A stretch of DNA of 44,616 nt from a virus, in IMG/VR virus record IMGVR_UViG_3300049203_000200, positions 1-44,616 of that record; one strand, given 5' to 3'. Positions 1,716 through 43,081 of this stretch are shown here, piece by piece. Positions within the stretch are counted from its first letter, which is position 1, and the number at the start of each line of letters is the position of its first letter. The notes beneath the pieces were generated by a model. That model worked only from the letters and a program-made list of their open reading frames with translations. It made no database searches and was not told the origin of the DNA. The translations under genes were made by a program, and so were the position numbers.

Positions 1716-3229
1716 CTGACCAGCTCACCCAACAGCAGGTCAACCAGACTGCCTGGGCTGCCTGCGACACCTTCCGCGGCGTCGTCGATGCGGGGCAGTA
1801 CAAGGACTACATCCTGGTGATGTTGTTTCTGAAGTACATCTCGGACCTCTGGAATGATCACGTCGAAACCTACCGCAAGCAGTTTGGTGGCGATGAGGCG
1901 CGCATCCGCCGCCGGCTTGAGCGTGAGCGCTTCGTGCTGCCCGAAGGGGCCAGCTTTTACGACCTTTACGATCGGCGCAACGAAGCCAACATCGGCGAGC
2001 TGATCAACGTCGCGCTCGAGAAGATCGAAGATACGAACCGCAGCAAGCTTGAAGGCGTGTTCCGCAACATCGACTTCAACTCGGAAGCCAACCTCGGCAA
2101 GGTCAAGGACCGCAATCGGCGCCTCAAGAATCTGCTTGAGGATTTCGTCAAGCCTGCGCTCGACCTTCGTCCGTCCCGTGTGACCGAGGACATTATCGGT
2201 GAGTGTTACATCTATCTGATCTCCCGCTTTGCCTCGGATGCGGGCAAGAAGGCTGGCGAATTCTATACGCCTTCGGCAGTTTCGGGCCTGCTCGCCAAGC
2301 TGGCCGGCGCGAAGCCGGGTGATACGATCTGTGACCCCGCCTGCGGTTCGGGCTCGCTGCTGGTTCAGGCTGCTCAAGAAGTGGGTTCGGACAACTTCGC
2401 GCTCTTCGGGCAAGAGGTGAACGGTGCGACGTGGGCACTGGCCCGCATGAACATGTTCCTGCACGCGAAAGATGCTGCGCGCATCGAATGGTGCGACACG
2501 CTTAACAGCCCGGCATTGGTCGAGGGCGACCATCTCATGAAGTTCGATGTCGTCGTCGCCAATCCCCCGTTCAGCCTCGACAAATGGGGCGCGGAGCACG
2601 CCGACAGCGATCAGTTCAATCGCTACTGGCGCGGTATCCCGCCCAAGTCGAAGGGCGATTACGCGTTCATCACGCACATGATCGAAATCGCCAAGCGGCA
2701 GAGCGGGCGCGTTGCGGTGATTGTGCCGCACGGCGTTCTCTTCCGCGGCGGGGCAGAAGGTCGGATCCGCCAGGCATTGATCGATGAGAATCTGCTAGAC
2801 GCTGTCATCGGGCTTCCCGCCAACCTGTTCACGACCACCGGCATTCCTGTCGCGATCCTGATCTTCGACCGTTCGCGCGAGCAAGGGGGGGTGAACGAGA
2901 AGCGCAAGGATGTGCTGTTCATCGATGCCAGCAACGAGTTTTCGCCGGGAAAGACCCAGAACGTGATGGGCGAAAACCATATTGCGAAGGTGCTGGAAAC
3001 CTATCGTGACCGAACGGAAATCGAGAAATATTCCCATCTCGCATTGCCGGAAGAGATTTCCGAAAACGACTTCAACCTCAACATCCCGCGTTATGTCGAC
3101 ACCTTTGAAGCCGAGGAGGAAATCGACGTTGCCGCCCTTCAACAGGACATCAACCGGATCGAGGCCGAGCTGGTCGAGGTGCGGGCGAAGATGGCCGGCT
3201 ATCTGAAGGAGCTTGGCGTCGATGTCTGA
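1712..3229 (+). CDS. hsdM: Type I restriction-modification DNA methyltransferase subunit HsdM
   Basis: A 505-residue N6-adenine methyltransferase subunit of normal length for HsdM. The N-terminal helical domain (AAWAACDTFRGVVDAGQYKD, FLKYISDLW) is followed by GEFYTP near residue 180, the SAM-binding motif DPACGSGSLL near 206, and the catalytic NPPF motif near 283. The tail is a coiled region that normally contacts HsdS. HsdM with HsdS modifies adenines in the bipartite recognition site; with HsdR the complex restricts unmodified DNA. The start overlaps the preceding gene by ATGA. All key motifs are intact, so the gene looks functional. Confidence 0.95.
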   Translation: MTDQLTQQQVNQTAWAACDTFRGVVDAGQYKDYILVMLFLKYISDLWNDHVETYRKQFGGDEARIRRRLERERFVLPEGASFYDLYDRRNEANIGELINVALEKIEDTNRSKLEGVFRNIDFNSEANLGKVKDRNRRLKNLLEDFVKPALDLRPSRVTEDIIGECYIYLISRFASDAGKKAGEFYTPSAVSGLLAKLAGAKPGDTICDPACGSGSLLVQAAQEVGSDNFALFGQEVNGATWALARMNMFLHAKDAARIEWCDTLNSPALVEGDHLMKFDVVVANPPFSLDKWGAEHADSDQFNRYWRGIPPKSKGDYAFITHMIEIAKRQSGRVAVIVPHGVLFRGGAEGRIRQALIDENLLDAVIGLPANLFTTTGIPVAILIFDRSREQGGVNEKRKDVLFIDASNEFSPGKTQNVMGENHIAKVLETYRDRTEIEKYSHLALPEEISENDFNLNIPRYVDTFEAEEEIDVAALQQDINRIEAELVEVRAKMAGYLKELGVDV

Positions 3230-4238
3230 GGGTAATCTGATCCTTTATACGACCGATGATGGTGCCGCGCAGATCCAGCTGCGCGCGGTGGGCGGCACCG
3301 TTTGGCTGTCGCTCAACCAAATTGCAGACCTGTTTGGTCGGGATAAATCCGTTGTTTCCCGCCACATCAAGGCGATTTTCGAAGATGGTGAGCTGGCGAT
3401 GGATTCAGTTGTTGCACGCCATGCAACAACTGCGGCTGATGGAAAGACGTATCAGGTCGACCACTACAACCTCGATATGGTCTTCGCCATTGGCTACCGT
3501 GTGCGATCGCAACGGGCGTCCCAGTTTCGCCGTTGGGCGACGACTGTCCTGAGGGAGTACCTGATCAAGGGCTTCGTAATGGACGATGCGCGCCTAAAGG
3601 ATGCCAGCTGGGATTATTTCGACGAACTGCTGGAACGCATTCGCGATATCCGGGCATCGGAAGCGCGGTTTTATCAGAAGATCCGGGACATCCTGGCCCT
3701 TAGTGAGGATTACGATCCCAAATCGGGTGCGGCGCATGAGTTTTACGCGACGATCCAGAACAAGATGCTGTTCGCCGTTACCGGCGGCACTGCGGCCGAA
3801 CTGATCAAATCCCGCGCCAATGCCAATACCCCCAATATGGGGCTGACGACATGGAAGGGCGCTGTCGTGCGCAAGGGGGACGTGGCTACCGCCAAGAACT
3901 ATCTGGGCGAGGCGGAGATCAAGGAACTCAACCTAATCGCCACCATGTTCCTCGACACGGCAGAACTGCGTGCCAGCCGTCGTCAGACGATGCGTCTGGC
4001 AGAGTGGGAAGGCGTGCTCGATACCTTCATCACATCCAACGAGCTGCCGCTGTTGCGCAATGCGGGCAGGGTTTCGGCGCGGCGGGCCGAACAGATTGCC
4101 CATGCGCGCTATGTCGAATTCGAGACCAAGCGGCGCGATGCAGAGCGGCTGGCAGCAGAACAGACGGATGATCTGGCTGAACTAGAGCGGATTGCCAAGG
4201 CCTCGAAGGGCCGGAAGAAGGACGTCAGGGATGCTTAA
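3222..4238 (+). CDS. rhuM: RhuM family protein embedded in the type I RM operon
   Basis: A 338-residue protein recognised as the RhuM family (first named in Salmonella pathogenicity island 3). The N-terminal part looks like a DNA-binding module: GTVWLSLNQIADLFGRDKS is helix-turn-helix-like, followed by VVSRHIKAIFEDGEL and YNLDMVFAIGYRVRS, close to the usual RhuM core. The C-terminal half is helical and charged. The molecular function of the family is unknown, but members commonly lie between hsd genes, which suggests a role in controlling or assisting the RM system. I chose the ATG at 3222, which overlaps the hsdM stop by 8 bases; a start at 3213 would add three residues. Confidence 0.85.
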   Translation: MSEGNLILYTTDDGAAQIQLRAVGGTVWLSLNQIADLFGRDKSVVSRHIKAIFEDGELAMDSVVARHATTAADGKTYQVDHYNLDMVFAIGYRVRSQRASQFRRWATTVLREYLIKGFVMDDARLKDASWDYFDELLERIRDIRASEARFYQKIRDILALSEDYDPKSGAAHEFYATIQNKMLFAVTGGTAAELIKSRANANTPNMGLTTWKGAVVRKGDVATAKNYLGEAEIKELNLIATMFLDTAELRASRRQTMRLAEWEGVLDTFITSNELPLLRNAGRVSARRAEQIAHARYVEFETKRRDAERLAAEQTDDLAELERIAKASKGRKKDVRDA

Positions 4239-5457
4239 ACGGTCGCTTCCCGCTGGCTGGCAGCGGACACCTCTCGACGAGGTTGCAGAGGTGCAAACCG
4301 GCATCGCCAAGGGTAAGGTAATCAATGGCATGACGGCAACCCTGCCATATTTGAGAGTGGCGAATGTCCAAGACGGGCACGTCGATCTGTCTGTCATCAA
4401 AGAAATCACGGTCAAGGCTTCAGAGGTAGAACGCTACAGCCTCCGAGCTGGCGACGTTCTTTTCACAGAAGGTGGAGACTTCGATAAACTTGGCCGCGGG
4501 ACCGTCTGGAATGGTCAAATCGCGCCGTGCCTCCATCAAAACCATGTCTTCGCAGTAAGGCCTAGCCTAAAGCGAGTAAATCCTGAGTTCCTCGCGTTTC
4601 AGGCTGCGTCAGAATACGGCAAGCGCTTCTTTCAACTTTCATCGAAGCAAAGCACCAATCTGGCTAGCATCAACTCGACGCAGTTGAAGCAATTTCCGGT
4701 ATTGTTGCCCCCCCTCCCAGAACAGCGCAAAATATCCGAAATTCTGCGCACATGGGACGAGGCGATCGAGAAGCTGGAGGCGCTGCGGGCGGCGAAGCGG
4801 TACCAGCTTATCGGACTAACGCAGAAATTGCTCGGCGTCGGCGGGGTTTTTCCGAACCGGTGGGAACAGCGCCCGCTTTCGGCAATATCAACGCGGGTGC
4901 GTCGCCAAAACGGCGGCGGCGAACATCCGGTGATGACCATTTCTGCAAAATCCGGCTTTCGATTGCAGTCCGACAAGTTTAGCCGTGACATGGCTGGCAG
5001 CAGTGTCGATCGCTACATTGTTTTGCATGAGGGCGAGTTTGCTTACAACAAAGGCAACTCACTCACGGCGCCCTATGGTTGCATCTTCCCGCTGGACCGT
5101 CCGACTGCGCTGGTGCCGTTCGTCTATTTCTGCTTCGCGCTCAACGCAGGCATGAACAGCGAATTCTATGCCCACCTGTTTGTAGCCGGAGCACTCAACC
5201 ACCAACTTTCACGCCTGATTAATTCTGGCGTCCGGAACGATGGCCTCCTGAACTTGGACCCGGAGGATTTCTTCGGCTGCAAGGTGCCAGTGCCTCCTGT
5301 CGAGGAACAATCTTCCATCGCACAGACCCTGACCGCCGCGAAACAAGAGGTCGGTCTGCTTGAGGCCGAAATTGATCTCCTGACCCGCCAGAAGCGTGGC
5401 CTGATGCAGAAGCTGCTGACGGGCGAATGGCGCGTGCAGGTGGAGGAGGCAGCATGA
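4231..5457 (+). CDS. hsdS: Type I restriction-modification specificity subunit HsdS
   Basis: A 408-residue specificity subunit with the classical two-TRD plan. TRD1 begins LPAGWQRTPLDEVAEVQTG and ends in the first spacer helix PLPEQRKISEILRTWDEAIE. TRD2 begins NRWEQRPLSAISTRV and ends in the second helix VEEQSSIAQTLTAAKQEV followed by GLMQKLLTGEWRV. It selects the bipartite DNA site recognised by the HsdM and HsdR subunits. The ATG at 4231 overlaps the rhuM stop by 8 bases; the frame is open 13 codons further upstream, but that extension reads as a shadow of rhuM. Its stop overlaps hsdR by ATGA. Confidence 0.95.
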   Translation: MLKRSLPAGWQRTPLDEVAEVQTGIAKGKVINGMTATLPYLRVANVQDGHVDLSVIKEITVKASEVERYSLRAGDVLFTEGGDFDKLGRGTVWNGQIAPCLHQNHVFAVRPSLKRVNPEFLAFQAASEYGKRFFQLSSKQSTNLASINSTQLKQFPVLLPPLPEQRKISEILRTWDEAIEKLEALRAAKRYQLIGLTQKLLGVGGVFPNRWEQRPLSAISTRVRRQNGGGEHPVMTISAKSGFRLQSDKFSRDMAGSSVDRYIVLHEGEFAYNKGNSLTAPYGCIFPLDRPTALVPFVYFCFALNAGMNSEFYAHLFVAGALNHQLSRLINSGVRNDGLLNLDPEDFFGCKVPVPPVEEQSSIAQTLTAAKQEVGLLEAEIDLLTRQKRGLMQKLLTGEWRVQVEEAA

Positions 5458-8400
5458 GCTTCAACGCCGCCGAGAAATTCCAGTCGCAAATCCCCGCGTT
5501 GCAACTGCTGGTGGCGCTGGGCTTCCAGCCGCTGAGCCTGGCAGAGGCGCTGCGCCTGCGTGGCGGGCGGCTGCGCAACGTCGTGCTTGACGATATCCTT
5601 GTCGAGAACCTGATGCGCATCAACCGGTTCACCCACAAGGGGCGCGAATACCCCTTCGATCTGGAAGACGCGCATGAGGCGATGCGCAAGCTGAAGCCGA
5701 CGCCGGACCGGCTCAAGGGACTGCGCGGCACCAACCAGGATATCTACGATACACTGGTGCTCGGCACGACGATCACCAAGACGATCGACGGGGATTCCAA
5801 AAGCTATTCGTTCCGCTTCATCAACTGGGACACACCCACCAACAACGCTTTCCATGTGACGGCTGAATTCTCGGTCGAACGAACCGGCAGCACCCAGTCG
5901 AAACGCTGTGACATCGTCGCATTTGTGAACGGCATCCCCATGCTGGTCATCGAGAACAAGCGCCCGACGGAAAGCCTGAAGAAGGCGGGCAGCCAGCTGA
6001 TAGGCTATCAAAACGAAGACAAAATCCCGCAGCTTTTCCATTTCACGCAGCTACTCCTGACGATGAACCGGATTGAAGCGCGCTATGCCACGGTTGGTAC
6101 CCCCCAGAAATTCTGGGGGACCTGGCGTGATGAGGAAGACACCGACCAGGCGATTGATCCATTCGCCAACCGTCCGCTTACCGCCGAGGAGAAGGACGCG
6201 GTTTTCTCCGGCGATTTCGCCGGCGCACGCCGCTACTTTGATGCCATGATGGCCGAAGGGACGCGCGCCATATCACCGCAGGACCGGACGATCTATTCGC
6301 TATGCCGGCCAGAACGGATGCTCGATCTGATCCGCCGCTTTACCGTCTTTGACGGGGGCATGCGCAAGGTGGCCCGCCACCAGCAGTACTTCGGTATCCG
6401 CAAGGCGGTGGAACGGGTGAAGCAGGTCGACGCCACCGGCGCCCGCAAGGGCGGCGTGATCTGGCACACCCAAGGCTCCGGTAAATCGCTGACGATGGTC
6501 ATGCTCGGGCGTTCGCTGGCGCTCGACAAGGCCATCCTCAATCCGCGGATCATTATCGTCACCGACCGCGATGACCTCGACAAGCAGATCAAGGACACCT
6601 TCAGGTCTTGCGACATGGAGCCTGTGCGGGCGACCACCGGCGCCAACCTGCTCGAGCTGATCGAGCAAAAAGCGGGCCTGATCACGACGATCATCAACAA
6701 GTTCGACACTGCCCTGCGCAACAGCGCCAGCACCGATGACGATGCGAACATCTTTGTCTTGGTCGATGAAAGCCACCGCACCCAGACCGGGAAATACGGC
6801 GGGCACAGCCAGTTCGCGACCAAGATGCGGCGGCTGCTGCCGAATGCCTGCTACCTCGGCTTCACCGGCACACCGTTGCTGAAGAAGGAAAAGAACACCC
6901 TCTCGACGTTCGGTGGGCTGATCCACAAGTATGCCATCAACGAGGCCGTGGCCGACGAGGCTGTCGTCCCGCTGCTTTACGAAGGCCGGATGGTCGAACA
7001 GCAGATCTCGGGCACCGTCATCGACAAGTGGTTCGAGAAAATCAGCGAAGGCCTGAACGACAAGCAGAAGGCTGACCTCAAGCAGAAATTTTCGCGCATG
7101 GATGCGCTGGCCAAGACCGGCCAGGCAATCCGGGCAAAGGCGTTCGATATCTCTGAGCACTACCGCCAGCACTGGCAGGGCACCGGATTCAAGGCCCAGC
7201 TTGTCGCCCCTTCCAAGGCAGCGGCGATCCGCTTCAAGGAAATGCTGGACGATATCGGCCATGTCACGAGCGAAATCATCATGTCGCCGCCCAACGACAA
7301 CGAGGGCAACGAGGAGGTCGATAAGGAATCCAAGGACCTGGTTCGGAAATTCTGGGACCAGATGATGGCCAGGTTCAAGGCCGAGGACGAATACAACCGG
7401 CAGATCATCGATGCGTTCAAGGGTTCCGGTGACCCCGAAATCCTGATCGTGGTGTCGAAGCTCCTGACCGGATTCGACGCCCCCCGGAACACGGTTCTTT
7501 ACGTCTGCAAATCACTGAAGGAGCATAATCTCCTGCAGGCCATCGCGCGCGTGAACCGCTTGTACGAGGACGACGGCGTCGAGAAGCAGTTCGGCTTCAT
7601 CATCGACTACGAAGGCCTGCTTGGCGAACTTGACAGCGCGCTTACCACCTACAGTGCTTTTGAGGGCTACGACGCTGGCGATCTTGTCGGGACCGTCCAC
7701 GATGTCCGGGAAGAAATCCGGAAGTTGCCGCAGCTGCACGACCAGCTCTGGGGCCTCTTCAAGTCCGTTCGCAATAAGAAGGACATGGAGGAATTTGAAC
7801 AGCTCCTTGGTGATGAAGCCATCCGGCATGATTTCTATGAACGGCTGAAGGCCTTCAGTCGGTGCCTGCACATCTCGATGTCGTCCGACAAGTTCCTCGA
7901 TGTTTTCGACGAGGCCAAGGTCGAGACGATGAAGCGCGACTGGAAGCGGTTCTCCGAGCTCAAGCGCTCGGTCCAGCTGCGATATCAGGAAGTCGTCGAC
8001 ATCAAGGAGTTCGAGCCGAAAATCCAGAAACTGCTCGATGATCATGTCGTCGCCTTGCCTGCCGAAACCATCATCGAGGTCGTCAACATCAATGATCCGG
8101 ACGCGCTCAAGGCGGTGGTTGAAGAAACCGGAGTGTCGGAGGGATCCAAGGCCGATCGTATTGCCAGCGCCACCCGCCGGACGATTACGGAAAAGATGGA
8201 TGAGGACCCGGCCTTCTACACGCAGTTCTCGGAGCTGCTGAAGGAGACGATCCGCGCCTACCGCGAAAAGCGTCTGTCTGAACGGGACTACCTGAATAGC
8301 GTCATTGATCTCGCCAGCAAGGTTGCTCGCAAGGATCGTGGTCGGGATGTGCCCGATGCGGTCAAAGGAAATGATGACGGACAGGCCTTCTTCGGCCTCC

Positions 8401-8666
8401 TCGATGGCAGCTTGACGACGCAGGCTGGCGAACCGGTGGAGCGAGAGGACGCCGCCCAGGTCGCTCTCGATATTATCGGGATCATCAAGGCCCACCACAT
8501 TGTGGGGGTGTGGTCCAATGAGGTTGCGCAGAACAATATGCGTAACGCCATCGACGACTATTTCTTCGATGTCCTGCGTGATGAAAAGGACGTTGGTGTC
8601 CCCGTTGAGATGCTTGATGACCTCGAGCAGAAGATCATGGACTTGGCCCGGGCAAGGTTTCCGTGA
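5454..8666 (+). CDS. hsdR: Type I restriction endonuclease subunit HsdR
   Basis: A 1070-residue motor and nuclease subunit, normal length for HsdR. The N-terminal PD-(D/E)xK nuclease shows CDIVAFVNGIPMLVIENKRP, with the E-x-K pair near residues 165-167. The SF2 translocase follows: Walker A in WHTQGSGKSLTM near 339, DESHR near 436 and FTGTP near 469, then helicase C motifs (LLTGFDAPRNTVLYV, QAIARVNRLY). The rest is the helical C-terminal domain that binds the methylase core. HsdR translocates DNA with ATP and cleaves at a distance when the site is unmethylated. All catalytic residues I can see are intact. Its start overlaps hsdS by ATGA and its end overlaps the next gene by GTGA. Confidence 0.96.
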   Translation: MSFNAAEKFQSQIPALQLLVALGFQPLSLAEALRLRGGRLRNVVLDDILVENLMRINRFTHKGREYPFDLEDAHEAMRKLKPTPDRLKGLRGTNQDIYDTLVLGTTITKTIDGDSKSYSFRFINWDTPTNNAFHVTAEFSVERTGSTQSKRCDIVAFVNGIPMLVIENKRPTESLKKAGSQLIGYQNEDKIPQLFHFTQLLLTMNRIEARYATVGTPQKFWGTWRDEEDTDQAIDPFANRPLTAEEKDAVFSGDFAGARRYFDAMMAEGTRAISPQDRTIYSLCRPERMLDLIRRFTVFDGGMRKVARHQQYFGIRKAVERVKQVDATGARKGGVIWHTQGSGKSLTMVMLGRSLALDKAILNPRIIIVTDRDDLDKQIKDTFRSCDMEPVRATTGANLLELIEQKAGLITTIINKFDTALRNSASTDDDANIFVLVDESHRTQTGKYGGHSQFATKMRRLLPNACYLGFTGTPLLKKEKNTLSTFGGLIHKYAINEAVADEAVVPLLYEGRMVEQQISGTVIDKWFEKISEGLNDKQKADLKQKFSRMDALAKTGQAIRAKAFDISEHYRQHWQGTGFKAQLVAPSKAAAIRFKEMLDDIGHVTSEIIMSPPNDNEGNEEVDKESKDLVRKFWDQMMARFKAEDEYNRQIIDAFKGSGDPEILIVVSKLLTGFDAPRNTVLYVCKSLKEHNLLQAIARVNRLYEDDGVEKQFGFIIDYEGLLGELDSALTTYSAFEGYDAGDLVGTVHDVREEIRKLPQLHDQLWGLFKSVRNKKDMEEFEQLLGDEAIRHDFYERLKAFSRCLHISMSSDKFLDVFDEAKVETMKRDWKRFSELKRSVQLRYQEVVDIKEFEPKIQKLLDDHVVALPAETIIEVVNINDPDALKAVVEETGVSEGSKADRIASATRRTITEKMDEDPAFYTQFSELLKETIRAYREKRLSERDYLNSVIDLASKVARKDRGRDVPDAVKGNDDGQAFFGLLDGSLTTQAGEPVEREDAAQVALDIIGIIKAHHIVGVWSNEVAQNNMRNAIDDYFFDVLRDEKDVGVPVEMLDDLEQKIMDLARARFP

Positions 8667-31565: not shown

Positions 31566-33854
31566 TCACTGATCCTCCTCCGGATAGACCCAGATCCGTG
31601 GATTCTCGACCGGCAGCGGACCTCCTGACTGCGGACATTTGAAGTGGCTCGGCAGGACATCGAGCATGTCGCGATGCAACTCACCGGTGTCCCCATCGGC
31701 GACCTCATCGGTCCCGGGAAAGGCCATGCCTTCGGTGCACATGAAGCCGAACTTGGATGTCGTCCCGCCCAGGCCATAGGAGGCGCCCTCGCGCACGAAT
31801 TTGATGTAGCCCTTGGTCGCGAGCACGCTGATACGGTCCCGGATGGTGTGCTTGCCGCCAAGACCTGCCTGGTTTTCGAATTTCTCGGCAAACTGCGTCG
31901 AGGTGTACAGCCGTCCAGCCGCAGCCTCGTCGAGCAGGATCCCGAGAATTACGTCATGCTTACGCACGCGTTCGGCATCCAGGAGGCCACCGATTTCCTG
32001 GCGTACCAGCCGGTCATTATTGGCATCCACCTCCATCCACTGCCCGCCACGCTTGTCGATCAGCATCGGCTCAAGGGCCGGGCCGTTGCGCAGTTCGATC
32101 TCGAGCCGTCGCTCGCCGCGGCCTTCCAGCGGACGATGCATGATGATGCCTGAGGTATAGAAACCGCGCAGCGAACTCGCACCGGACAGCGCCTGGAACG
32201 GATCCTCCCCCACCTGCTTCTTCGTCAGCTTCTTGGTATGGTGAGCGAGGATCAAGCCTGCGTCAGGTGCGGCAGCGTCACGCAGGGCCTCGACCCGCTG
32301 CTGCAGGAAAAACAGCATGGCGGCATTGTCGTTTTCCCCACCGCCCTCGGGGCCGCCGTCGAACACATTACGAATGGGATCGATGCAGATGATGTCTGGC
32401 GGCGCGTCCGGAAAATACCTGGCGATCGCGTCGCTCGCGAGCGCGACGCCCTTTTCGTCAAGCAAGAGGTTCAGTTTTGGCGTCACGATGAGATTATCCC
32501 GCGCCGCCGCCAAAACCTGCTGATCGAGGCGGATCGCCTGCAATCGTTCGCGCAGATAATGGTACTGTATCTCGGCCTGAAGGTAGAAAATCCGCAGCGG
32601 CCGAGGGGGCGTGAACCGCAAAAATGGCCGACCAGCTGCCAGGTGCACGAGCATGCAGATCAAAAAATCGCTCTTGCCCACCTTGGGTGCGCCGCCCACA
32701 ACCAGCATGCCGCCGGGGGTCAAAACGCGAGGGGCGATGATATCGTCGGGCATCGGGCCGCTGTCATCAAGCAGCGCACCCAGCGATAAGGCTGGCAGCG
32801 ACCGAGGTGCGCGGGCGACAGTCACAGCGGCCGCGGGCCCGTTGCGCTCATAATGGCGCTTCGAAATGCGATCGGCTTCCTCACGCAGCCGCTCAAGTGG
32901 CCAGCTGGGCCGCAGCATGGCGGCATTGAACTCGCAGATTGCCTCCCAGCCTTCCGTCTTGCTGAGCCGACCCTCATGGACCATCCGCACGTAGTGACCG
33001 ATTGCAGCGCTTGCGCCGTCAAACCGTGTCCACGCATCTTCACCACCTTCACGCACCGGATTGGTCAGGATCGTGTCGAGGGAAGGTTTTGATGTCGATG
33101 GATGGATAGCGGCAATGAGTCCCGGCAGCATCGGCATCGCGGTGACGGCTGCGGCCACCTCTTGGAGGTGGGCTTCGTTCGCGCCCCGGTGATGCAGAAT
33201 GTTTACGAGGCGCCGTTCGCCACCTTTCCGGTATATGCTGCCTGCGACGCGGATCGGCTGATGGGCCGACCGGAAGGATAGATCGCCACCGACCTTACCA
33301 GCGATTTCGCCGCGCACCCGGCACAGGAGCGCGATATCGTCGCCCGCTGCTGGTTCCGACAGCCGCCAGTAGAGGTGCAACTTGCACTGCCCCTCAGTGG
33401 TCAGCCCGCCAGACGCGATCTCGAGCGTCGGCTCCCCGAGATGAAGCGCAAGGTGATCCCGCTTGGCATTGATGTCACCATGGTCGAGATCGACGAGGAT
33501 CGTCTGCATTTGCCGGACATCAGCGGCCTTCGCCTGTCCGGTCTCCGCGACGGTACCCGGCAAGACAAACACGCCCATTCCCGCATCGGCGGCCAACCGC
33601 GAAAAGTCCGCGATTTTGGAAGCGGCTGCAGCGTCTGCAGGCGTCCAGATGGTCTGCGGCGCGCGGTTCAAATCCTGACCCTTGTCGACATACGCACGCA
33701 CGGGGATGAGGCCGTCGCAGTGGCCGCAGACTACATCGATGAACGTCGCGATTTGCGCCGGATCGGGAATGGCGGGGGTGCCGCCTAGCGGCTGAGAAAA
33801 ATGACGATCCACAGGACCTGCTCCGCCGGAAGGGTCGCCAAGAAGATGTGGCAA
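31566..33854 (-). CDS. Phage replication protein: RepB-type primase with RepA-like helicase
   Basis: A 762-residue protein. The N-terminal part resembles RepB-like primases: ILVDLDHGD near residue 118 and SGGLTTEGQCKLHLYWRLSE with the expected His. A RecA-like ATPase (AAA_25/RepA type) follows: VVGGAPKVGKSDFLICML (Walker A) near 383, DIICIDPIRNVF (Walker B) near 490 and GLILAHHTKKL near 535. The C-terminus is a winged-helix-like region. It would prime and unwind phage DNA, probably at the iterons just downstream. The longest frame begins with TTG at 33854; GTG at 33812 has GGAG at good distance and may be the true start. Confidence 0.85.
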   Translation of the reverse strand: MPHLLGDPSGGAGPVDRHFSQPLGGTPAIPDPAQIATFIDVVCGHCDGLIPVRAYVDKGQDLNRAPQTIWTPADAAAASKIADFSRLAADAGMGVFVLPGTVAETGQAKAADVRQMQTILVDLDHGDINAKRDHLALHLGEPTLEIASGGLTTEGQCKLHLYWRLSEPAAGDDIALLCRVRGEIAGKVGGDLSFRSAHQPIRVAGSIYRKGGERRLVNILHHRGANEAHLQEVAAAVTAMPMLPGLIAAIHPSTSKPSLDTILTNPVREGGEDAWTRFDGASAAIGHYVRMVHEGRLSKTEGWEAICEFNAAMLRPSWPLERLREEADRISKRHYERNGPAAAVTVARAPRSLPALSLGALLDDSGPMPDDIIAPRVLTPGGMLVVGGAPKVGKSDFLICMLVHLAAGRPFLRFTPPRPLRIFYLQAEIQYHYLRERLQAIRLDQQVLAAARDNLIVTPKLNLLLDEKGVALASDAIARYFPDAPPDIICIDPIRNVFDGGPEGGGENDNAAMLFFLQQRVEALRDAAAPDAGLILAHHTKKLTKKQVGEDPFQALSGASSLRGFYTSGIIMHRPLEGRGERRLEIELRNGPALEPMLIDKRGGQWMEVDANNDRLVRQEIGGLLDAERVRKHDVILGILLDEAAAGRLYTSTQFAEKFENQAGLGGKHTIRDRISVLATKGYIKFVREGASYGLGGTTSKFGFMCTEGMAFPGTDEVADGDTGELHRDMLDVLPSHFKCPQSGGPLPVENPRIWVYPEEDQ

Positions 33855-33860
33855 CGCACG

Positions 33861-34064
33861 CTACAGCGCTCCCGGATTCTGGCGCGCCGTGCGGTCGCGC
33901 AACTGTTCTGCCTCGAACGCCTCGACGTCCTCAAGGCGGTAAACCACGCGGCCGCCGAGCTTGACGAACTGCGGCCCTTCGCCGACCCAACGCCAGCGCT
34001 CGAGCGTGCGGTGGGAGATATTCCAGCGATCAGCGAGATCGATCTGATTGAGGTGCTTTGTCAT
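33861..34064 (-). CDS. Excisionase/AlpA-type helix-turn-helix protein
   Basis: A 67-residue protein beginning MTKHLNQIDLADRWNISHRT with LERWRWVGEGPQFVKLGGRV and VYRLEDVEAFEAEQ. This is the HTH_17 (MerR-like excisionase) pattern: a helix-turn-helix followed by a beta wing. Such proteins direct excision or activate early genes. It lies seven bases before the longest replication ORF and is probably cotranscribed with it. No other prophage regulator was recognised. Confidence 0.82.
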   Translation of the reverse strand: MTKHLNQIDLADRWNISHRTLERWRWVGEGPQFVKLGGRVVYRLEDVEAFEAEQLRDRTARQNPGAL

Positions 34065-34261: not shown

Positions 34262-36109
34262 TTATTTTCGCAGCAGGTCACCCAGCGAAATTTCTTGAAG
34301 CCCCGGGTTGATTCGATAGCCTTTCCCGGGCTGGTTCTCGATGATATCGTTCTCATCAAAGGGCAGCCCTTGGCCGAGAACGATATCCTCGGTGATTGCC
34401 TTGCGCAGGCGGTTTACCTGCTGGCGAAGCGATTGATCTGTGAGACTGAGCTTATTAGCCAGATCCAGCGCCTGGATGGATGCAACTTCGTGGCCATCCG
34501 ACTTGCCCTCCCGGAACATGGGAAGCAGCGCCTCGAAAAGCTCAAAACTTTTCCCTTCCAGCACAACGTCGCCTCGGAACCTGATCTTGCGCGCGCTCGC
34601 ATCGACCGCGAATTCACAGACAGGTGCTGCGAGCCGATCCACAAACGTCCGGGCTTCTTCCTGATAGCCAGATGGCTCGGCTATTTCGATCCGGTTCTGA
34701 TTAAACAGCATGGCAAGCAAGGACCCAGCTGGAAGCCCGCCGCTCGTCAATTGAGGAAGGTGTGCCGCGACACCGCTGTTGAGCACTCCTATGACGTCCT
34801 CATGATGCCGCATGTACATCTCGTATATGCGGTCGGCCGCTTGGTCCCTCGGTGTGTCATGGAGGTGGTCGAGCGCGGAAACGATTTCCGGATATTCGCC
34901 AATAAACCGGTTTCTGGGGGTGTCCCGAAAATCCCGAAAGAACTTCACATACGCTGCTGCCATCCGCACGTCGCGATCGTGAGTACGGTCGCCGGTCAGG
35001 AGATCCACGCCGTAGAGACCGGAAGCCTCCATATTGCCCAGGCCGGCGGCAAGCACGGCGAACCGGCGATCGATGCATTGCGAGCACACCCCGCAATGAG
35101 GGCGCTTTATCGACATGACACGTGGACGAGTGCAGCTATTCGTTTGGGCAAGCAACTCGCCCGCGCCATACGCGTCAATCTTCCGAACTATCTCGGTTTT
35201 GGTCAGCCATTGAAATGGTGTCCGGACAATGATCTCTCGTTCAAGCAGCGATGAGAAGAACGTCTCGAAACCCCGGATTACTCTGGGATGCGTGGTCCGG
35301 GTGGCTCGAGCTCCCAGGACGTCCCCGGCAATCGGAATATTCAGGCTGACCACCCCGTTCTCGTAAAATGTGATTTCATCTTTGCCGAACATCCTGGCGA
35401 CAACGACACCTAGTGCTGCGAACAGGAAAGACCTTGTGCGCTGCGTATATTCGACAGGGACTGAGCCCGTGTTTGTGATGTTCACCGGAACGAAGAAGAG
35501 TCGCGGACCGCAAGCGCGTTGGTTCAGCGCGTCAACCAGCTGCTTTTGAATATTGAATATCTTGGGTGCTGAATGGTGACCGACCAGCACCATTTTTTTA
35601 CCTTCTGCCTGCGCTTCGATCACCCCGGCGAATGAATCCAGCCCGCCCGAAAAGAGGGCTATTTCATCGGGCTGATCGGCACGATCGGTGAGGTCGGAGA
35701 AGTAGGCTTCGCTCGCCGCCAACGGGGACTGCGCCCGGACAAACTCAAATGTATAGTGGTCGTCCGCCAGGAAGCCGAGCATATCCGCCAGACCGTCCCG
35801 AACTTCCTGACGCTGCCAGATGCTATGTGCGCGTACCGGAATTCGAAAGACCATCTCACGGCGCCAGTCGGTGCCATAGTCGGTCAGAAATTCTGAACCA
35901 CGGCGCGTCTGCTGATCTGCGCAATAGACATAGGCCGCGACCTCAAGCAGATCGAGCAGGACATCGGGGATATCGCTGACCAGCGCCTTGCTGATATCTG
36001 TGATCCGGAGATTTATGTTCCTAGCTGCCCCTTGCACATCCAGTGCCCGGCGGTCGCCTCCCAGCGTCGAGACGACATCCAGACCCCCGCAGGCGAATTC
36101 AAACCCCAC
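34262..36109 (-). CDS. QueC-like PP-loop enzyme fused to an OmpR-type winged helix
   Basis: About 615 residues. After a roughly 150-residue N-terminal region comes an ATP pyrophosphatase domain with an intact PP-loop (ALFSGGLDSFAGVIEA), as in 7-cyano-7-deazaguanine synthase QueC, and near residue 337 a complete four-cysteine zinc site (NSC ... HCGVCSQCIDRR) of the QueC type. The last 100 residues (VLEGKSFELFEALLPMFREG, SLRQQVNRLRKAITEDI, PGKGYRINP) match the OmpR/PhoB winged-helix DNA-binding domain. QueC makes preQ0 from carboxy-deazaguanine, ATP and ammonia; QueC relatives in defence (QatC, CBASS Cap9) modify other targets. GTG at 36109 has AAAGGG nine bases upstream; GTG at 36139 is an alternative. 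It overlaps the preceding gene. Confidence 0.82.
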   Translation of the reverse strand: MGFEFACGGLDVVSTLGGDRRALDVQGAARNINLRITDISKALVSDIPDVLLDLLEVAAYVYCADQQTRRGSEFLTDYGTDWRREMVFRIPVRAHSIWQRQEVRDGLADMLGFLADDHYTFEFVRAQSPLAASEAYFSDLTDRADQPDEIALFSGGLDSFAGVIEAQAEGKKMVLVGHHSAPKIFNIQKQLVDALNQRACGPRLFFVPVNITNTGSVPVEYTQRTRSFLFAALGVVVARMFGKDEITFYENGVVSLNIPIAGDVLGARATRTTHPRVIRGFETFFSSLLEREIIVRTPFQWLTKTEIVRKIDAYGAGELLAQTNSCTRPRVMSIKRPHCGVCSQCIDRRFAVLAAGLGNMEASGLYGVDLLTGDRTHDRDVRMAAAYVKFFRDFRDTPRNRFIGEYPEIVSALDHLHDTPRDQAADRIYEMYMRHHEDVIGVLNSGVAAHLPQLTSGGLPAGSLLAMLFNQNRIEIAEPSGYQEEARTFVDRLAAPVCEFAVDASARKIRFRGDVVLEGKSFELFEALLPMFREGKSDGHEVASIQALDLANKLSLTDQSLRQQVNRLRKAITEDIVLGQGLPFDENDIIENQPGKGYRINPGLQEISLGDLLRK

Positions 36110-36893
36110 CGGACGATGCCCTTTCTGCCAATTCCGCACTTATCTTCTTCAAGGCGAAGGAAGCGAAGTTGCGCGTCTGCAAACGTGAGATCTGTCGGTC
36201 TTTGACGTATACGTTCTTTGCCAGCCAATCTTTCGAGAAACCGCGCATGATGAGCGTCGACTCTTCACAATGACGACGAACAGAACGATTGAGAAGTGAC
36301 ATGTCGCCAAGCGAATGTGCCAGTTTGTCCCTGCCAATATGCTTGGGCCACTCCCGGTCCAGGTAGTAGAGGATGTTGCGCTCTGTCAGCTTCGTGAAAA
36401 ACCGTTGGGCAAGTTCACCAAACTTGTCCGGTGAAGCCAAGGTAGCCAGCGTCGTCCTCTCGTCGTCACCGCCTGCCTGCCAAAGAGATGGAAGCCGCTC
36501 CTGCGCCACTTCATAGAGGGCTGCAATCCCGGCTTGGCGCGACATCTCGCCCAAATCGGTGATGTGCGTGTCGGCCCGACGAATGACCTTTTCGATAGCG
36601 GCGTCAAAGCCGATCACCACATCCAACAGGGACGGAGCTGGCGGGCCTTCAATTCCAATCACTTTGAGAGCAGCAGCGAAATCAGCGGATTTTGCGGCCT
36701 GTGGAATTTTGATTAACAACCAGCACACCTCGACGAACGCTGCATCAGTTGCTGCTCGCTTCAGGGCCTTTTCAGTTGCCTTGTAGATGGCATTCGCCAG
36801 CTGCCCGACGTCGACGTCTCCGGCGGCGAGATAGGCAACGATATCTTTCCATTTCCGAGATGCCGGCAATTTGCCAAGCCTGACGTGCCCCAT
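36099..36893 (-). CDS. Unknown protein coupled to the QueC-like gene
   Basis: A 264-residue protein beginning MGHVRLGKLPASRKWKDIVA. It is mostly helical (VGQLANAIYKATEKALKRAA, LLDVVIGFDAAIEKVIRRAD), with an aromatic segment FFTKLTERNILYYLDREWPK and conserved-looking histidines and cysteines (RRHCEESTLIMRGFSKDWLA). No catalytic motif is evident. I recall similar proteins starting MGHIRLG-LP as a family of unknown function, but could not check. AGGGGGG precedes the ATG by five bases. Its end overlaps the QueC-like gene by about 11 bases, so the two are very probably made together and act together. Confidence 0.72.
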   Translation of the reverse strand: MGHVRLGKLPASRKWKDIVAYLAAGDVDVGQLANAIYKATEKALKRAATDAAFVEVCWLLIKIPQAAKSADFAAALKVIGIEGPPAPSLLDVVIGFDAAIEKVIRRADTHITDLGEMSRQAGIAALYEVAQERLPSLWQAGGDDERTTLATLASPDKFGELAQRFFTKLTERNILYYLDREWPKHIGRDKLAHSLGDMSLLNRSVRRHCEESTLIMRGFSKDWLAKNVYVKDRQISRLQTRNFASFALKKISAELAERASSGGV

Positions 36894-37365: not shown

Positions 37366-37535
37366 CAACTGACGCCCGACTGTCCGAGTTGGGCAGGATA
37401 CTCGCTGCCGGCGTCCTGCGCATGGCGGACAAGTCCAGTTTTATATCTGCCGACTGCGGAGATAGTTCACTCGCAATCCTGCCCACCAGGAGCGTCAGTT
37501 GTTCCCGGGCACGAGCCCGGATTGGAGGACGATAA
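37362..37535 (+). CDS. Small conserved ORF ahead of the DUF2924-recombinase module
   Basis: A 57-residue protein beginning MTTDARLSELGRILAAGVLR and continuing with KSSFISADCGDSSLAILPTR. Short proteins of the form ...AAGLLRL...KSS...GESSLD... regularly precede DUF2924 and recombinase genes in alphaproteobacteria; their role is unknown. Its TAA overlaps the next ATG (TAATG). Confidence 0.6.
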   Translation: MTTDARLSELGRILAAGVLRMADKSSFISADCGDSSLAILPTRSVSCSRARARIGGR

Positions 37536-38014
37536 TGCAAATTCAGACAATGAAGGTAGCGGCAGGCAACGCCCAGGTGCTGGCCAGGCTGGCCGCGCTG
37601 AAGGCGGTGACGGTCGGGGAGCTGAAAACCGAATGGCAAACCTTGATGGGATCGGCCGCGCCCAACAACAGCCGATCGTTTCTAGAGCAGCGGCTGGCCT
37701 ACAGAATCCAGGAGCTGACCTGGGGCGGGCTGGCCAAGCCGGTCACCCGGCTGCTTGATGCCTTGGCCGACGAGGTCGAGGGCAAGAAGGTGAGGAAGTT
37801 GGTGATCAGCGACCCACGCAATCCGGTCATCGGTACGAGGCTGGTGCGCGAATGGGATGGGGCGGAGCACGTCATCACCGTGATGAAGGACGGGTTCAAC
37901 TGGCAGGGCCGCCGCTACAAGTCGCTGTCGGCGGTCGCCCGCGACATCACCGGCACACGCTGGAACGGCTATCGCTTCTTCGGCCTGCGTGAAGCCAGGG
38001 GAGACGCACGATGA
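37535..38014 (+). CDS. DUF2924 protein of the recombinase module
   Basis: A 159-residue DUF2924 protein: AVTVGELKTEWQTLMGSAAP, FLEQRLAYRIQELTWGGLAK, GTRLVREWDGAEHVITVMKD and GFNWQGRRYKSLSAVARDIT then GTRWNGYRFFGLR. The family always accompanies large serine recombinases in this setting and its C-terminal part looks DNA-binding, so a recombination directionality or accessory role is plausible but unproven. GGAGGA lies five bases before the ATG at 37535. It overlaps the recombinase gene by ATGA. Confidence 0.85.
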   Translation: MQIQTMKVAAGNAQVLARLAALKAVTVGELKTEWQTLMGSAAPNNSRSFLEQRLAYRIQELTWGGLAKPVTRLLDALADEVEGKKVRKLVISDPRNPVIGTRLVREWDGAEHVITVMKDGFNWQGRRYKSLSAVARDITGTRWNGYRFFGLREARGDAR

Positions 38015-39330
38015 CGGAGATGACCCCCCGGCGCCGTCTGCGCTGCGCCATCTACACCCGCAAATCGAGCGAGGAAGGGTTGGACATGGAGTTCAACAGC
38101 CTCGATGCGCAGCGCGAATCCTGCGAGGCCTACGTTACCAGCCAGCGCGCCGAAGGCTGGGCCCTGATGCGCGAACGCTATGATGACGGCGGGTTCTCGG
38201 GCGGGACGCTCGATCGCCCGGGGCTGAAAACCCTGATCGAGGATATCGAGGCCGGGCTTGTCGACGTGATCGTGGTCTACAAGATCGACCGCCTCAGCCG
38301 TTCGCTGATGGATTTTGCCAAGCTGGTCGAGGTGTTCGACCGGCACGGGGTCACGTTCGTGTCGGTCACGCAGGCCTTCAACACGACCACCAGCATGGGG
38401 CGGCTGACGCTCAACATCCTGCTGTCGTTCGCCCAGTTCGAACGCGAGGTCACCGGCGAACGGATCCGCGACAAGTTCGCTGCCAGCCGCGCAAAAGGCA
38501 TGTGGATGGGCGGCTTCGTGCCGATGGGGTATGATGTGGTCGACCGCAAGCTCATCGTCAATGAAGCCGAGACGGCCACGGTCCGCCATATGTTTGAGCG
38601 GTTTGTCGAGCTGGGCTCCGCTACGACGCTGACGCGAGAGCTGGTGGCAAATGGCACCCTCAACAAGCGCGGCAAACCCATCGACAAGGGGTTCCTCTAC
38701 AAATTGTTCCGCAACCGGGTTTATCTCGGCGAGGCAGTCCACAAGGGCACCAGCTATCCCGGCGAACATCAGGCCATCATCACGCCCGAACTCTGGGATC
38801 AGGTGCATTCCATCCTGCAGGAGAGTCCCCGGGAACGGGCGGCCAACACCCGCGCCCAGACTCCGGCGCTGCTCAAGGGACTGATATTCACCGTCACCGG
38901 CATTGCCATGACGCCGACCGCCACCAAGAAGGGCAGCCGCCATTATCGCTACTATACCTCGATGGACGCCATCCGGAATCGCGCCGGTGAAGGCACCGAC
39001 AGGTTTGTCCGCCTGAACGCCGGGATGGTGGAGAATGCCGTAGTCCAACACATCCGGTCTCTGCTGCGCACCCCCGAGGTCGCGGCCCGGGCAGTGGAAG
39101 CCGCGCTCCGGATTGACCCGGACCTCGCCGAGCGTGATGTCGTCGCCGCGCTGTCGGGCTTTGACGGGCTGTGGGAATCGCTGTTCCCGGCCGAGCAGGC
39201 TCGTATCGCACGGCTGCTCATCGAGCGGGTCACGGTCAGCTCTGATGGCATGGCAGTGGATTTGCGCACCGAGGGGCTCGGGTCGGTCATCCGCGAGATG
39301 GTCACGCCGAAACAGGAGTTGGCAGCATGA
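38011..39330 (+). CDS. Large serine recombinase (probable prophage integrase)
   Basis: A 439-residue recombinase. The resolvase domain has AIYTRKSSEEGLDMEFNSLD with the nucleophile Ser 19 in Y-x-R-x-S, and VVYKIDRLSRSLMDFAKLVE and LLSFAQFEREVTGERIRDKF. The recombinase domain follows (GFLYKLFRNRVYLGEAVHKG, ELWDQVHSILQES), with a LLKGLIFTVTGIAMTPT segment replacing the cysteine zinc ribbon of other groups. Such enzymes integrate DNA by recombining short attP and attB sites through a Ser-DNA intermediate. It is the only recombinase in the window and is probably the prophage integrase. Confidence 0.92.
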   Translation: MTEMTPRRRLRCAIYTRKSSEEGLDMEFNSLDAQRESCEAYVTSQRAEGWALMRERYDDGGFSGGTLDRPGLKTLIEDIEAGLVDVIVVYKIDRLSRSLMDFAKLVEVFDRHGVTFVSVTQAFNTTTSMGRLTLNILLSFAQFEREVTGERIRDKFAASRAKGMWMGGFVPMGYDVVDRKLIVNEAETATVRHMFERFVELGSATTLTRELVANGTLNKRGKPIDKGFLYKLFRNRVYLGEAVHKGTSYPGEHQAIITPELWDQVHSILQESPRERAANTRAQTPALLKGLIFTVTGIAMTPTATKKGSRHYRYYTSMDAIRNRAGEGTDRFVRLNAGMVENAVVQHIRSLLRTPEVAARAVEAALRIDPDLAERDVVAALSGFDGLWESLFPAEQARIARLLIERVTVSSDGMAVDLRTEGLGSVIREMVTPKQELAA

Positions 39331-40546: not shown

Positions 40547-43081
40547 TCATTTCTTGCGCGCCTGCTTGACCGGTAACCGGGCGGTTTTTGCCCGGGCCTC
40601 CGGGCCTTCCGACGAAGGTAGAACGGCACCGAATGGCAGGTCGATGCGAAGCTCGACACGGTTCCGGTCGGCTTCCGCGATCGCGCGAACTTCAACAATC
40701 GCTGTCTTGTCCGGAACCACGCCTTTCGCCGGAACCTTCCGCGCGGCCATGACGATCACGAGCTGCGAATTGAGCGCGAGGCCATAGCGCCGTCCTTGCA
40801 TGCCGGCGCCCTTCGCGACCGCAGGCGGGTTGGCCGGTGTTCCGTGATACTTGTTCTCGATCACGACCTGACGTTCGACCAGCAAGTCGAGTTCGCCGCC
40901 AGCGACTTCGGTTCCTTCATCGACGGCGAGCGTAGCGCGCAGATGCTCGACGAGCTTGGCCTGAAGCGCCCCTTCCTTGTCGAGGGCGGTGGTGGTCTGG
41001 TTGCCGGCATACCAGCTGTCGATGAAGCGCCACAGTGACCGCAGCGTTTTGGTGAGCGCATTTCGGCCGGCGACCATTAGGCCGCCTTTCAGTTGCTTGT
41101 TGAGTCCAACCGCCAGCTTGCTCGCGAAGTCCGGGTCGTCGGCCAGCCATTCGTCGGGAACCGCAAGGTCTTCGGTTCTGACACGCAGGAGCGAATGACG
41201 TTCACATGTGATCAGATCGGCGGTTTCCTGATCGATCAGACCGGCCGTGATCAGCGCCTCGATCCACCGCGCGTCGATATTCTGGCCCGCCTTGATGTAG
41301 CCATCAGCGTCCTTGGCCATGACCACGCCGAATTGGCGAAGGAAGATGATCCGGCTGGCGAGTGCGATCACCGGAACGACTTCTTTGGGGCAGAAAACGT
41401 AGCCGGTACGCTTCTGGAGATCGTACGCATCCGCCCATTTCTGCGGATTGAACGAGAATTCCGGCAGCTTGAGCGTGCCGTCCGGGTGACGCGCGAGAAT
41501 GCGGATCGCACCGGCTTTTCGCCCAGGCAGGTCCACGATGATCTGTTCCGCGCCAGTAGCTGACAGTGCCTGAAGCGCACGCTCCATATCCGCAGCGTCG
41601 ATGTCGGATGCCTTGAGCGTGTTGGCGATGTCGTTGGCCAGCACATGGATATCTGCACCGACCTCGTAGCGCGCTTGCAAGCCCTGCAGGCGCTTGACGA
41701 CTTCTTTCCATTGCGCGTCGCGGTTGGATTCGGCTGCATCTGCCCCCAGTCCCGGCGGTGATGCGATAAAGCGGCCGCGAAAGGCGAATGCGCGATGCAG
41801 GAGGTCGCGATTGAGGATGCCGCGCGCGAGTCCCGCGGCAGACGCCGATGCGACTTCAAGCTTTGGATGCGTGACCTCGCCGGCAATGATGCGCAGGAAC
41901 GTATCGTCGCCGACAGAAAGGAAGATCTCGTCGAAATTGAATCGCCGTCCCCGGTCGCGCTCGGCGACCAGCATCATGCGCTGCGCCATGGCCTCGGCCG
42001 CGCGGACCTTATGGTGATGATAGAGCCGGTCATACAGGAAGGTGCGTCCGATCAGCATCTGCTCAAACGAGCCATAGCCCGAAGCAGCGATACCGATTTG
42101 ATGGAAAACCTTGTTGGTAGCCTTGGCGATGCGCGCGCGCATCGCTTCATCGGCGCTCTCCAGATTGCCGTCGTGTACCTGCAGCACCTCGAGCTTGGAA
42201 AGCAGCCGCTCGGTATCGAAGCCGATCCGCAGGCCCGTATGATGCGCATCGCGCATCAGGAAATCGAGACGGTCGGCGTCAACTTGGCCGGAGATGATTG
42301 TCGAAAGGTGCGTGACTCCGGGCCCATCGACGCCGCCGATGATCGCCGCAACGATTCGCTCCTGAACCTGAGTGGAATCGAGACCGCCCAGCCGATACAT
42401 GCCGTGCTGGAGTAACTCGGTCACAGCATCGGATAGGACAATCATCACCGCGATGACTTCCGAGGTCGCTGGCGCACTGTTGAGGCTGTAACGCTCGATC
42501 AACATGGTGCGCGCGACCTTCAGCTCGCGGCGCCAATCGGCGTCGTTTGCGCCAGTCTGCGTGCCCAGCGGTGAGTGCACCTCGAGCACGGGCTCGATCG
42601 CATGGCTGAAAGGGCCATGCCCGAGATCGTGAAACATCGCGGCTAGGCGAAGCGTTTCGCGCTCCTCGTCATCGACGCCCGGCATGGTCTCCGCGGTAAT
42701 GCCGCTGCGCTTCATTTCGGCGTTTCTGCGGGTCACCTGCCGCTGCAGGGCGTCGGCCATGCGTTCGACCGCGCCCACCACGCCCATGATATGCTCGAGC
42801 CGGTCGTGCGACGCGCCGGGGAAAACCAACTGCGCCAGCCCGAGCTGCCGAACGCCGCGCATTCGCTGGAGCAATTGCGAATCGAGTAGAGCGACTTCGC
42901 GCGGCAGCAACTCGATCGTGCCCCAAACCGGGTCGTTCAGCTGCTTGGGTCTGAATTGCTTCGGATCGTCCTGTAATCGGCGAAGTAGGATTTCAACCCA
43001 GCCGGCGCACAACCCGTCTACCTGCATCGCGAGAGCAGGGGCGGCCTCGCGCAAAGCGACTCGAATTGATATTCCCCCCAA
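40547..43081 (-). CDS. HD-domain phosphohydrolase fused to a PD-(D/E)xK-like nuclease
   Basis: Up to 844 residues. The N-terminal half is a SAMHD1/dGTPase-like HD domain with the H-HD-D set: SHDRLEHIMGVV near residue 90, AAMFHDLGHGPFSHAIE near 149 and DADRLDFLMRDAHHTGL near 268. The middle is helical with no recognised motif. Near residues 725-742 GGELDLLVERQVVIENKYHG has the D ... E-x-K layout of PD-(D/E)xK nucleases. The family normally hydrolyses dNTPs; depletion of dNTPs or DNA cleavage would both hinder phages. The longest frame begins with TTG at 43081, six bases after the partner's stop; the first ATG is at 43027. It is convergent with the ATPase relic. Confidence 0.8.
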   Translation of the reverse strand: MGGISIRVALREAAPALAMQVDGLCAGWVEILLRRLQDDPKQFRPKQLNDPVWGTIELLPREVALLDSQLLQRMRGVRQLGLAQLVFPGASHDRLEHIMGVVGAVERMADALQRQVTRRNAEMKRSGITAETMPGVDDEERETLRLAAMFHDLGHGPFSHAIEPVLEVHSPLGTQTGANDADWRRELKVARTMLIERYSLNSAPATSEVIAVMIVLSDAVTELLQHGMYRLGGLDSTQVQERIVAAIIGGVDGPGVTHLSTIISGQVDADRLDFLMRDAHHTGLRIGFDTERLLSKLEVLQVHDGNLESADEAMRARIAKATNKVFHQIGIAASGYGSFEQMLIGRTFLYDRLYHHHKVRAAEAMAQRMMLVAERDRGRRFNFDEIFLSVGDDTFLRIIAGEVTHPKLEVASASAAGLARGILNRDLLHRAFAFRGRFIASPPGLGADAAESNRDAQWKEVVKRLQGLQARYEVGADIHVLANDIANTLKASDIDAADMERALQALSATGAEQIIVDLPGRKAGAIRILARHPDGTLKLPEFSFNPQKWADAYDLQKRTGYVFCPKEVVPVIALASRIIFLRQFGVVMAKDADGYIKAGQNIDARWIEALITAGLIDQETADLITCERHSLLRVRTEDLAVPDEWLADDPDFASKLAVGLNKQLKGGLMVAGRNALTKTLRSLWRFIDSWYAGNQTTTALDKEGALQAKLVEHLRATLAVDEGTEVAGGELDLLVERQVVIENKYHGTPANPPAVAKGAGMQGRRYGLALNSQLVIVMAARKVPAKGVVPDKTAIVEVRAIAEADRNRVELRIDLPFGAVLPSSEGPEARAKTARLPVKQARKK

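Follow-up and report, generated by a model that had tools for sequence, protein, structure and literature searches.

A widespread, probably QatBC-type gene pair without QatA and QatD, carried in a viral genome record

The enzyme and its partner

The window, i.e. the whole 44,616-nucleotide stretch of viral DNA analysed here (IMG/VR record IMGVR_UViG_3300049203_000200), carries on its minus strand two overlapping open reading frames (ORFs) at 34262-36893, as an earlier note made from the sequence alone had described. The downstream gene encodes a QatC-like enzyme with a C-terminal winged helix and the upstream gene a QatB-like partner protein, and it is concluded that the pair represents a new and widespread QatBC-type module without QatA and QatD, a variant of Qat that is unannotated in the libraries searched. 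The enzyme ORF (34262-36139, minus strand) gives 625 residues counted from the first GTG at 36139. Because the enzymes of homologues start about 10 codons later, overlapping the partner by 4-14 nucleotides, and GTG 36109 gives the window pair an 11-nucleotide overlap, the latter codon is the likelier start, yielding a protein of 615 residues (34262-36109). The partner ORF (36099-36893, minus strand) encodes 264 residues. The ratio of nonsynonymous to synonymous substitution rates, calculated against two relatives, is 0.14-0.21 for both genes, which are thus maintained under purifying selection.

Profile and predicted-structure comparisons identify the enzyme as QatC-type throughout its length. 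The PADLOC QatC model covers residues 46-381 (E 3.3e-53), a profile of the family matches crystal QatC chains at E 1.7e-56 (9vlk) and 4.2e-53, and residues 11-478 of the AlphaFold2 model, whose predicted local distance difference test (pLDDT) score is 86, superpose on QatC 9y01_B with a Z score of 36.6 over 409 residues; fold matches to QueC and Cap9 are far lower, at Z about 14. A match to PF06508 reflects QueC-family ancestry, and the pyrophosphate loop and four-cysteine zinc site are shared with canonical QueC. However, a housekeeping QueC was rejected, as the earlier note had anticipated: the enzyme has long extensions, scores only 29.8 bits against the 150.3 cut-off of the QueC equivalog TIGR00364, and has no queuosine genes in the window, whose record contains no PTPS.

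The active site is retained throughout the family. The SGGLDS pyrophosphate loop (residues 164-169; 35633-35650, minus strand) and the zinc site formed by C336, C349, C352 and C355 (35075-35134, minus strand) are intact, as previously read from the sequence, with each loop residue conserved in 164-165 of 168 homologues and the four cysteines invariant in all 168, so that the loss in close homologues that the earlier note had counted as contrary evidence was not seen. Also invariant or nearly so are D63, D75, R80, W92, SGGxDS, THP and Y376, and the motifs described for the QatC cluster (D63, D75/R80/W92, RxRxxxF, HP, TK, Y376; PMC13329287) are kept in 158-168 of the 168. Since the homologues were collected with DNA patterns that cover parts of TQRxRSF, ENGxxSLN and HCGxCxQC, conservation of those pattern residues is partly by construction; the remaining residues were not used in the search. 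In the TRTTHP segment (residues 280-285; 35285-35302, minus strand) T280 and T282, which are Thr or Ser in 168/168 homologues, align with T278 and T280 of QatC, the residues that replace the Tyr and Asp that read 7-carboxy-7-deazaguanine in QueC and Cap9 (PMC13279940).

The partner is predicted to be all-alpha with 11 helices (AlphaFold2 pLDDT 90.6) and an unstructured segment at residues 1-14. Among 999 PDB chains compared with this model the best match is QatB (9y01_A/9y02_A, Z 10.7, 193-199 residues aligned), followed by an unrelated chain at Z 6.3. Searches of PDB, Pfam, PADLOC, NCBIfam and PHROGs with the partner sequence gave nothing significant. The QatB-like assignment nevertheless is probable, because the fold match is joined by gene position (the partner occupies the qatB position, with the genes overlapping), by pairing with a QatC-type enzyme, and by the logic of the N-terminus. 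The last was examined by searching for motif residues 5-15 alone, with no start codon required: the motif was found in 147 of 152 loci, and in all 147 a start codon stands at position 1 and Gly at residue 2, with His at residue 3 in 146. The consensus is MGHxRLGxLPxx[RK]x[WL], and positions 2-18 clearly exceed the remainder of the protein in conservation, pairs of partners having a median identity of 34%; even a Leptospira noguchii plasmid copy with 24% identity retains the start MGHERLGILPKTRSW. In the window the motif codons MGHVRLGKLPASRKW lie at 36849-36893 (minus strand), Gly2 being the predicted acceptor after removal of Met. The QatB proteins of canonical qat comparators start with MGTS, MGTT or MGTN. 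One annotated QatB, that of Agrobacterium fabrum C58 (181 residues; 4303-4848 of locus L263), looks mis-started, and its open frame runs upstream to MGTSKTSTGPGKNVPLVPNW, giving 298 residues.

Features common to the pair and qatABCD (PDB 9y01, 9y02, 9vlk, 9zee; PMC13279940) are the QatC fold, which spans N-extension, QueC core and C-extension, the ATP loop, Thr/Thr pocket, zinc site and catalytic D63, and a helical partner, encoded immediately upstream, whose flexible N-terminus begins Met-Gly and has Leu-Pro and Trp further on. The pair differs in being without the QatA ATPase and QatD nuclease, in the N-terminus MGHxRLGxLP instead of the MGTS of QatB, in a partner tail of ~15 residues as compared with 30-90 in QatB, in a partner that cannot be aligned to QatB by sequence, and in the winged helix or other module added at the C-terminus of the enzyme. 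Type IV of the cyclic oligonucleotide-based antiphage signalling systems (CBASS) likewise employs a QueC-family enzyme, Cap9 (PDB 9nto), and a partner that starts Met-Gly and has a nucleobase joined at Gly2; however, Cap9 has ~185 residues and keeps the Tyr/Asp base-recognition residues that are Thr/Thr in the pair enzyme. Assignment of the pair to type IV CBASS was rejected, there being no SMODS (CD-NTase) match in the window record and a partner that is all-alpha and QatB-matching. The earlier claim that the locus has neither a QatA/B/D set nor a CD-NTase holds for QatA, QatD and the CD-NTase, but the predicted fold of the partner best matches QatB, and the view of a system separate from Qat is contradicted by the QatC character of the enzyme, the probable QatB fold of the partner, and a published minimal Qat that consists of QatB and QatC.

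C-terminal modules, distribution and genomic setting

The C-terminal part of the enzyme (residues 507-618; 34286-34621, minus strand) is weak by sequence as a winged helix (Pfam Trans_reg_C at E 0.016, below the cut-off), but the OmpR/PhoB/ToxR-type domain proposed in the earlier note is a real fold in the model. It consists of a beta sheet, three helices and a C-terminal hairpin with a GYR wing, and over 85-94 residues matches CadC (5ju7, Z 9.2) and DNA-bound AdeR (5x5l, Z 9.0), as well as DNA-bound ToxR (8b4b, Z 8.7) and ArlR (9dlu, Z 8.3). R72, R77 and the GYR wing are invariant across the winged-helix set (alignment A9). The domain is not, however, what defines the system, since other modules stand in its place in relatives. 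Clustering of the tails gives ~110 with the winged helix of the window and 45 of a second type with a conserved helical region at its end, for which sequence search found no recognisable fold (alignment A10); the remainder are three tails of 438-457 residues and some singletons, and the Leptospira enzyme ends in a DpnII-MboI nuclease (E 1e-10). Several tail types on one core indicate that exchange affects the C-terminal module, while enzyme core and partner stay the same. The three long tails belong to QatC-like proteins of ~910-930 residues (L062, L065 and L085), and have no Pfam match.

About 150 homologous loci from many phyla each have just the enzyme-partner pair. Relatives are encoded in 219 genome-contig and 122 viral stretches, a recurrence that places the pairing far beyond chance. 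An intact partner with the motif was found in 146 of 154 loci having enough upstream sequence. Two others are canonical qat comparators, and the remaining six comprise four frameshifted or interrupted genes in which the start motif is still visible (L038, L047, L083, L142), one contig discontinuity (L057) and one copy truncated by an insertion sequence (L007). The earlier note had named homologues lacking the partner as evidence that would speak against it, and the partner is present in every readable homologous locus. No pair locus had a homologue of QatA, QatB or QatD in its vicinity, tblastn with QatA included, and the window record contains no match to PTPS/QueD, KAP NTPase (PF07693) or TatD (PF01026) and no second QueC. 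Enzymes paired with MGH-type partners separate from the canonical MGTS QatC set with FastTree support of 0.92.

A module of the MGH type without QatA and QatD is not described in PMC13279940, PMC13329287 or the literature searched, the coverage of which excludes most subscription papers and preprints. Since only about a third of the QatC cluster of PMC13329287 adjoins qatA or qatD, the MGH-type sequences probably lie uncommented inside that cluster. A third QatBC-like arrangement is seen in plasmid loci of Bosea and Labrenzia (L264 3893-7629 and L265 3779-7482), where a QatC-like enzyme follows a small gene and there is no qatA or qatD. The small partner there, of 187-189 residues, starts with MSDGPHRSLPM (Met-Ser) and carries a Trp near residue 15. 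Rather than being fused to a winged helix, the enzyme is followed by a separate gene for an XRE regulator and then by a gene of ~210 residues.

The pair sits, as the earlier note had it, between replication and recombinase genes. On one side are a primase/helicase gene and a small helix-turn-helix (HTH) gene, together spanning 31566-34064, and on the other a DUF2924 gene (PF11149, E 7.9e-50) and a large serine recombinase gene (PF00239, E 3.6e-38), together at 37499-39330 on the plus strand. The small HTH_17 gene (33861-34064, minus strand; PF12728 at E 3.3e-7, phrog_66), which is excisionase/AlpA-like, is directly downstream of the enzyme gene, and 102 of 108 winged-helix loci contain it, usually 100-300 nucleotides behind the enzyme gene. 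Only two of the 80 closest viral relatives of the window recombinase contain the pair, which is therefore accessory cargo, and its guanine plus cytosine (GC) content is below that of the flanks in 92% of loci; the earlier description of the pair as prophage cargo is borne out. The slot is filled in pair-free relatives by S24 or HTH+M78 repressors, encoded on the opposite strand; in isolated cases it contains GmrSD, AbiJ, Abi_C or PADLOC candidates. Another conserved gene pair, with products of ~312-330 and 395 residues of which the larger matches phrog_37634, is found in related phages in the same slot beside the HTH_17 gene, in L189 (5286-7398, minus strand) and also in L191, L193, L196, L198 and L220, and is a candidate cargo system in its own right. 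Direct repeats sought as attachment sites between the tested ends amounted to a single 12-mer, which is uninformative. At 24 genome loci none of the phage markers applied was present. Taken together, the flanks of these loci hold type I methyltransferases, DrmA/DrmD (DISARM), AbiE and GmrSD homologues and integrases, and neighbours checked individually include a type I methyltransferase near L044 and L064, the Druantia protein DruE near L065, and HEC-05 near L068.

Proposed function and its rivals

For reaction, donor, trigger and antiphage outcome the following may be inferred by analogy. Removal of Met from the partner would leave a free Gly2 on a flexible tail; the QatC-like enzyme would bind the partner, thread the tail into its ATP site, activate a carboxylated small molecule with ATP and join it to Gly2, as modelled on Cap9 and its CD-NTase and on the proposal for QatC and QatB. 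The modified partner, together with the enzyme, would then restrict incoming phages, and the C-terminal module (the winged helix, the DpnII-like nuclease in Leptospira, or the second module elsewhere) probably anchors the complex on DNA or provides the output. An ATP-dependent modification of Gly2 is proposed since ATP loop, zinc site, Thr pocket and fixed Met-Gly tail are all kept, and the partner Gly2 is the most likely substrate by analogy to known systems. Cap9 joins 7-carboxy-7-deazaguanine to Gly2 of its CD-NTase, QatB and QatC suffice for protection against phage lambda, and defence is abolished by the QatB G2D mutation, the QatC SSAA mutation and QatC Thr mutants (PMC13279940). Altogether it seems rather probable that the pair is a QatBC-type module acting without QatA and QatD, in which the enzyme modifies Gly2 of the partner and the modified complex restricts phages, in keeping with the possible antiphage role put forward in the earlier note.

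A number of points weigh against this proposal. With the NCBIfam QatC model the enzyme scores 201 bits, whereas the cut-off is 280. For a helical bundle, a Z of 10.7 is by itself only suggestive of QatB, Foldseek alone gave no significant partner match (E 0.14), and relatedness of partner and QatB is undetectable by sequence using QatB chains and hidden Markov models. The QatC reaction has never been reconstituted, and the group that QatC adds to QatB and how this stops phages were stated to be open in 2026 (PMC13279940). No effector can be made out in the winged-helix form of the pair, of ten large neighbours checked one by one seven gave no defence match (a raw count without a background rate), and most winged-helix copies are borne by prophages whose phages are without a normal repressor, which also fits regulation.

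This last feature makes lysogeny control the main rival, in which enzyme and partner would regulate the prophage as a lysogeny or superinfection-immunity switch, partner modification serving as signal in place of a CI/ImmR-type repressor. Repressors with S24 or M78 domains were seen in 2 of 28 viral records that carry the pair as compared with 13 of 22 recombinase-matched controls (Fisher p 1e-4), although the records are fragmentary, the phages are related by descent, 9 of the 22 controls also are without S24/M78, and absence of S24/M78 does not prove absence of a repressor. The window record itself has no PF00717, PF06114 or PF01381 match (Cro/CI HTH, S24, M78). The repressors that fill the slot in controls, the OmpR-type GYR wing on the enzyme, and the position of the pair at the head of a leftward operon beside the excisionase-like HTH gene agree with such a switch. 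However, no operator-like repeats are conserved upstream of the partner, the same pair lies near restriction-modification, Druantia and candidate defence genes at loci without phage markers, and a nuclease takes the place of the winged helix in Leptospira. A lysogeny or immunity switch is thus possible, at least in the winged-helix branch, but as the explanation of the pair it is unlikely, and the chromosomal, nuclease-fused and defence-linked members point to defence as the older role.

The earlier note had also supposed that the enzyme modifies a protein or a nucleic acid, and between these the partner protein is the better supported by the fixed Gly2 start. Action on DNA or a small molecule, with the partner as scaffold and the winged helix as DNA anchor, would accord with the QueC ancestry and with known phage-borne 7-deazaguanine DNA modification (PMC13329287), but is decidedly improbable given that Thr replaces the Tyr/Asp substrate residues, that the window has neither a second QueC nor PTPS/QueD, and that ~18 of 50 hosts have neither QueC nor QueE. 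Overlapping genes, a DNA-binding domain and a GC content below that of the flanks might suggest a toxin-antitoxin-like addiction pair of the prophage, a reading rendered very unlikely by the large size and QatC type of the enzyme, by its invariant catalytic residues, by the lack of any toxin fold, and by QatB/QatC relatives that are defence proteins. Clear QatC homology and the presence of counterparts of QatB and QatC alone could be taken for decay of a qatABCD operon that has lost qatA and qatD. That is scarcely credible, and already contradicted by the family-wide pattern of ~150 loci with just the pair and no qatA, qatB or qatD match in any of them, by the purifying selection on the window copy, and by the different fixed N-terminus and separate clade.

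The donor proposed for the QatBC-type reaction deserves separate consideration. In a survey of 50 pair-carrying genomes, some of them incomplete and all carriers with no comparison group, 18 gave no match above background to either canonical QueC or QueE, a number that rises to 19 if a weak QueC hit at 1.8e-33 is left out of account. Single absences are uncertain, since in about three genomes with an unmistakable QueC the QueE model found nothing. About ten of the carriers without QueC and QueE are isolates, e.g. Seohaeicola saemankumensis, Antarctobacter heliothermus, Rubellimicrobium thermophilum and Flavimaricola marinus. PTPS is absent from 19 of the 50, partly other genomes, some with QueC and QueE. 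Host-made 7-carboxy-7-deazaguanine may therefore not be the donor and should not be taken for granted, in agreement with the Thr/Thr pocket, and the absences call for caution over the term carboxydeazaguanylation used for QatC in PMC13329287. A more far-reaching combination, in which the Gly2 donor is not host 7-carboxy-7-deazaguanine and the winged-helix complex is a prophage switch for both lysogeny and phage exclusion, is quite unlikely; if true, it would be a regulator derived from an immune protein-modification enzyme.

The pair family presents the Qat problem pared in nature to two core genes, in hundreds of diverse natural pairs that mark the exact N-terminal residues under selection. 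Carriers without QueC and QueE make the donor question directly testable, and fused output modules (in one case a DpnII-like nuclease) offer a clue to the last step. The module, though widespread, is missed or mislabelled by defence annotation as it stands.

Other genes in the window

Two further regions of the window were observed in passing. Type I restriction-modification genes occupy 1712-8666 (plus strand) at the left end of the record and may be phage cargo or host flank; by PDB match their products are HsdM (505 residues, E 3.2e-91), an HsdS-like protein (421 residues, E 6e-16) and HsdR (1079 residues, E 2.5e-34). Near the recombinase, an 844-residue protein (40547-43081, minus strand) has a SAMHD1-like HD phosphohydrolase domain (PDB E 4e-24), and its C-terminal stretch GGELDLLVERQVVIENKYHG resembles a PD-(D/E)XK nuclease, so that it is possibly a further defence gene.

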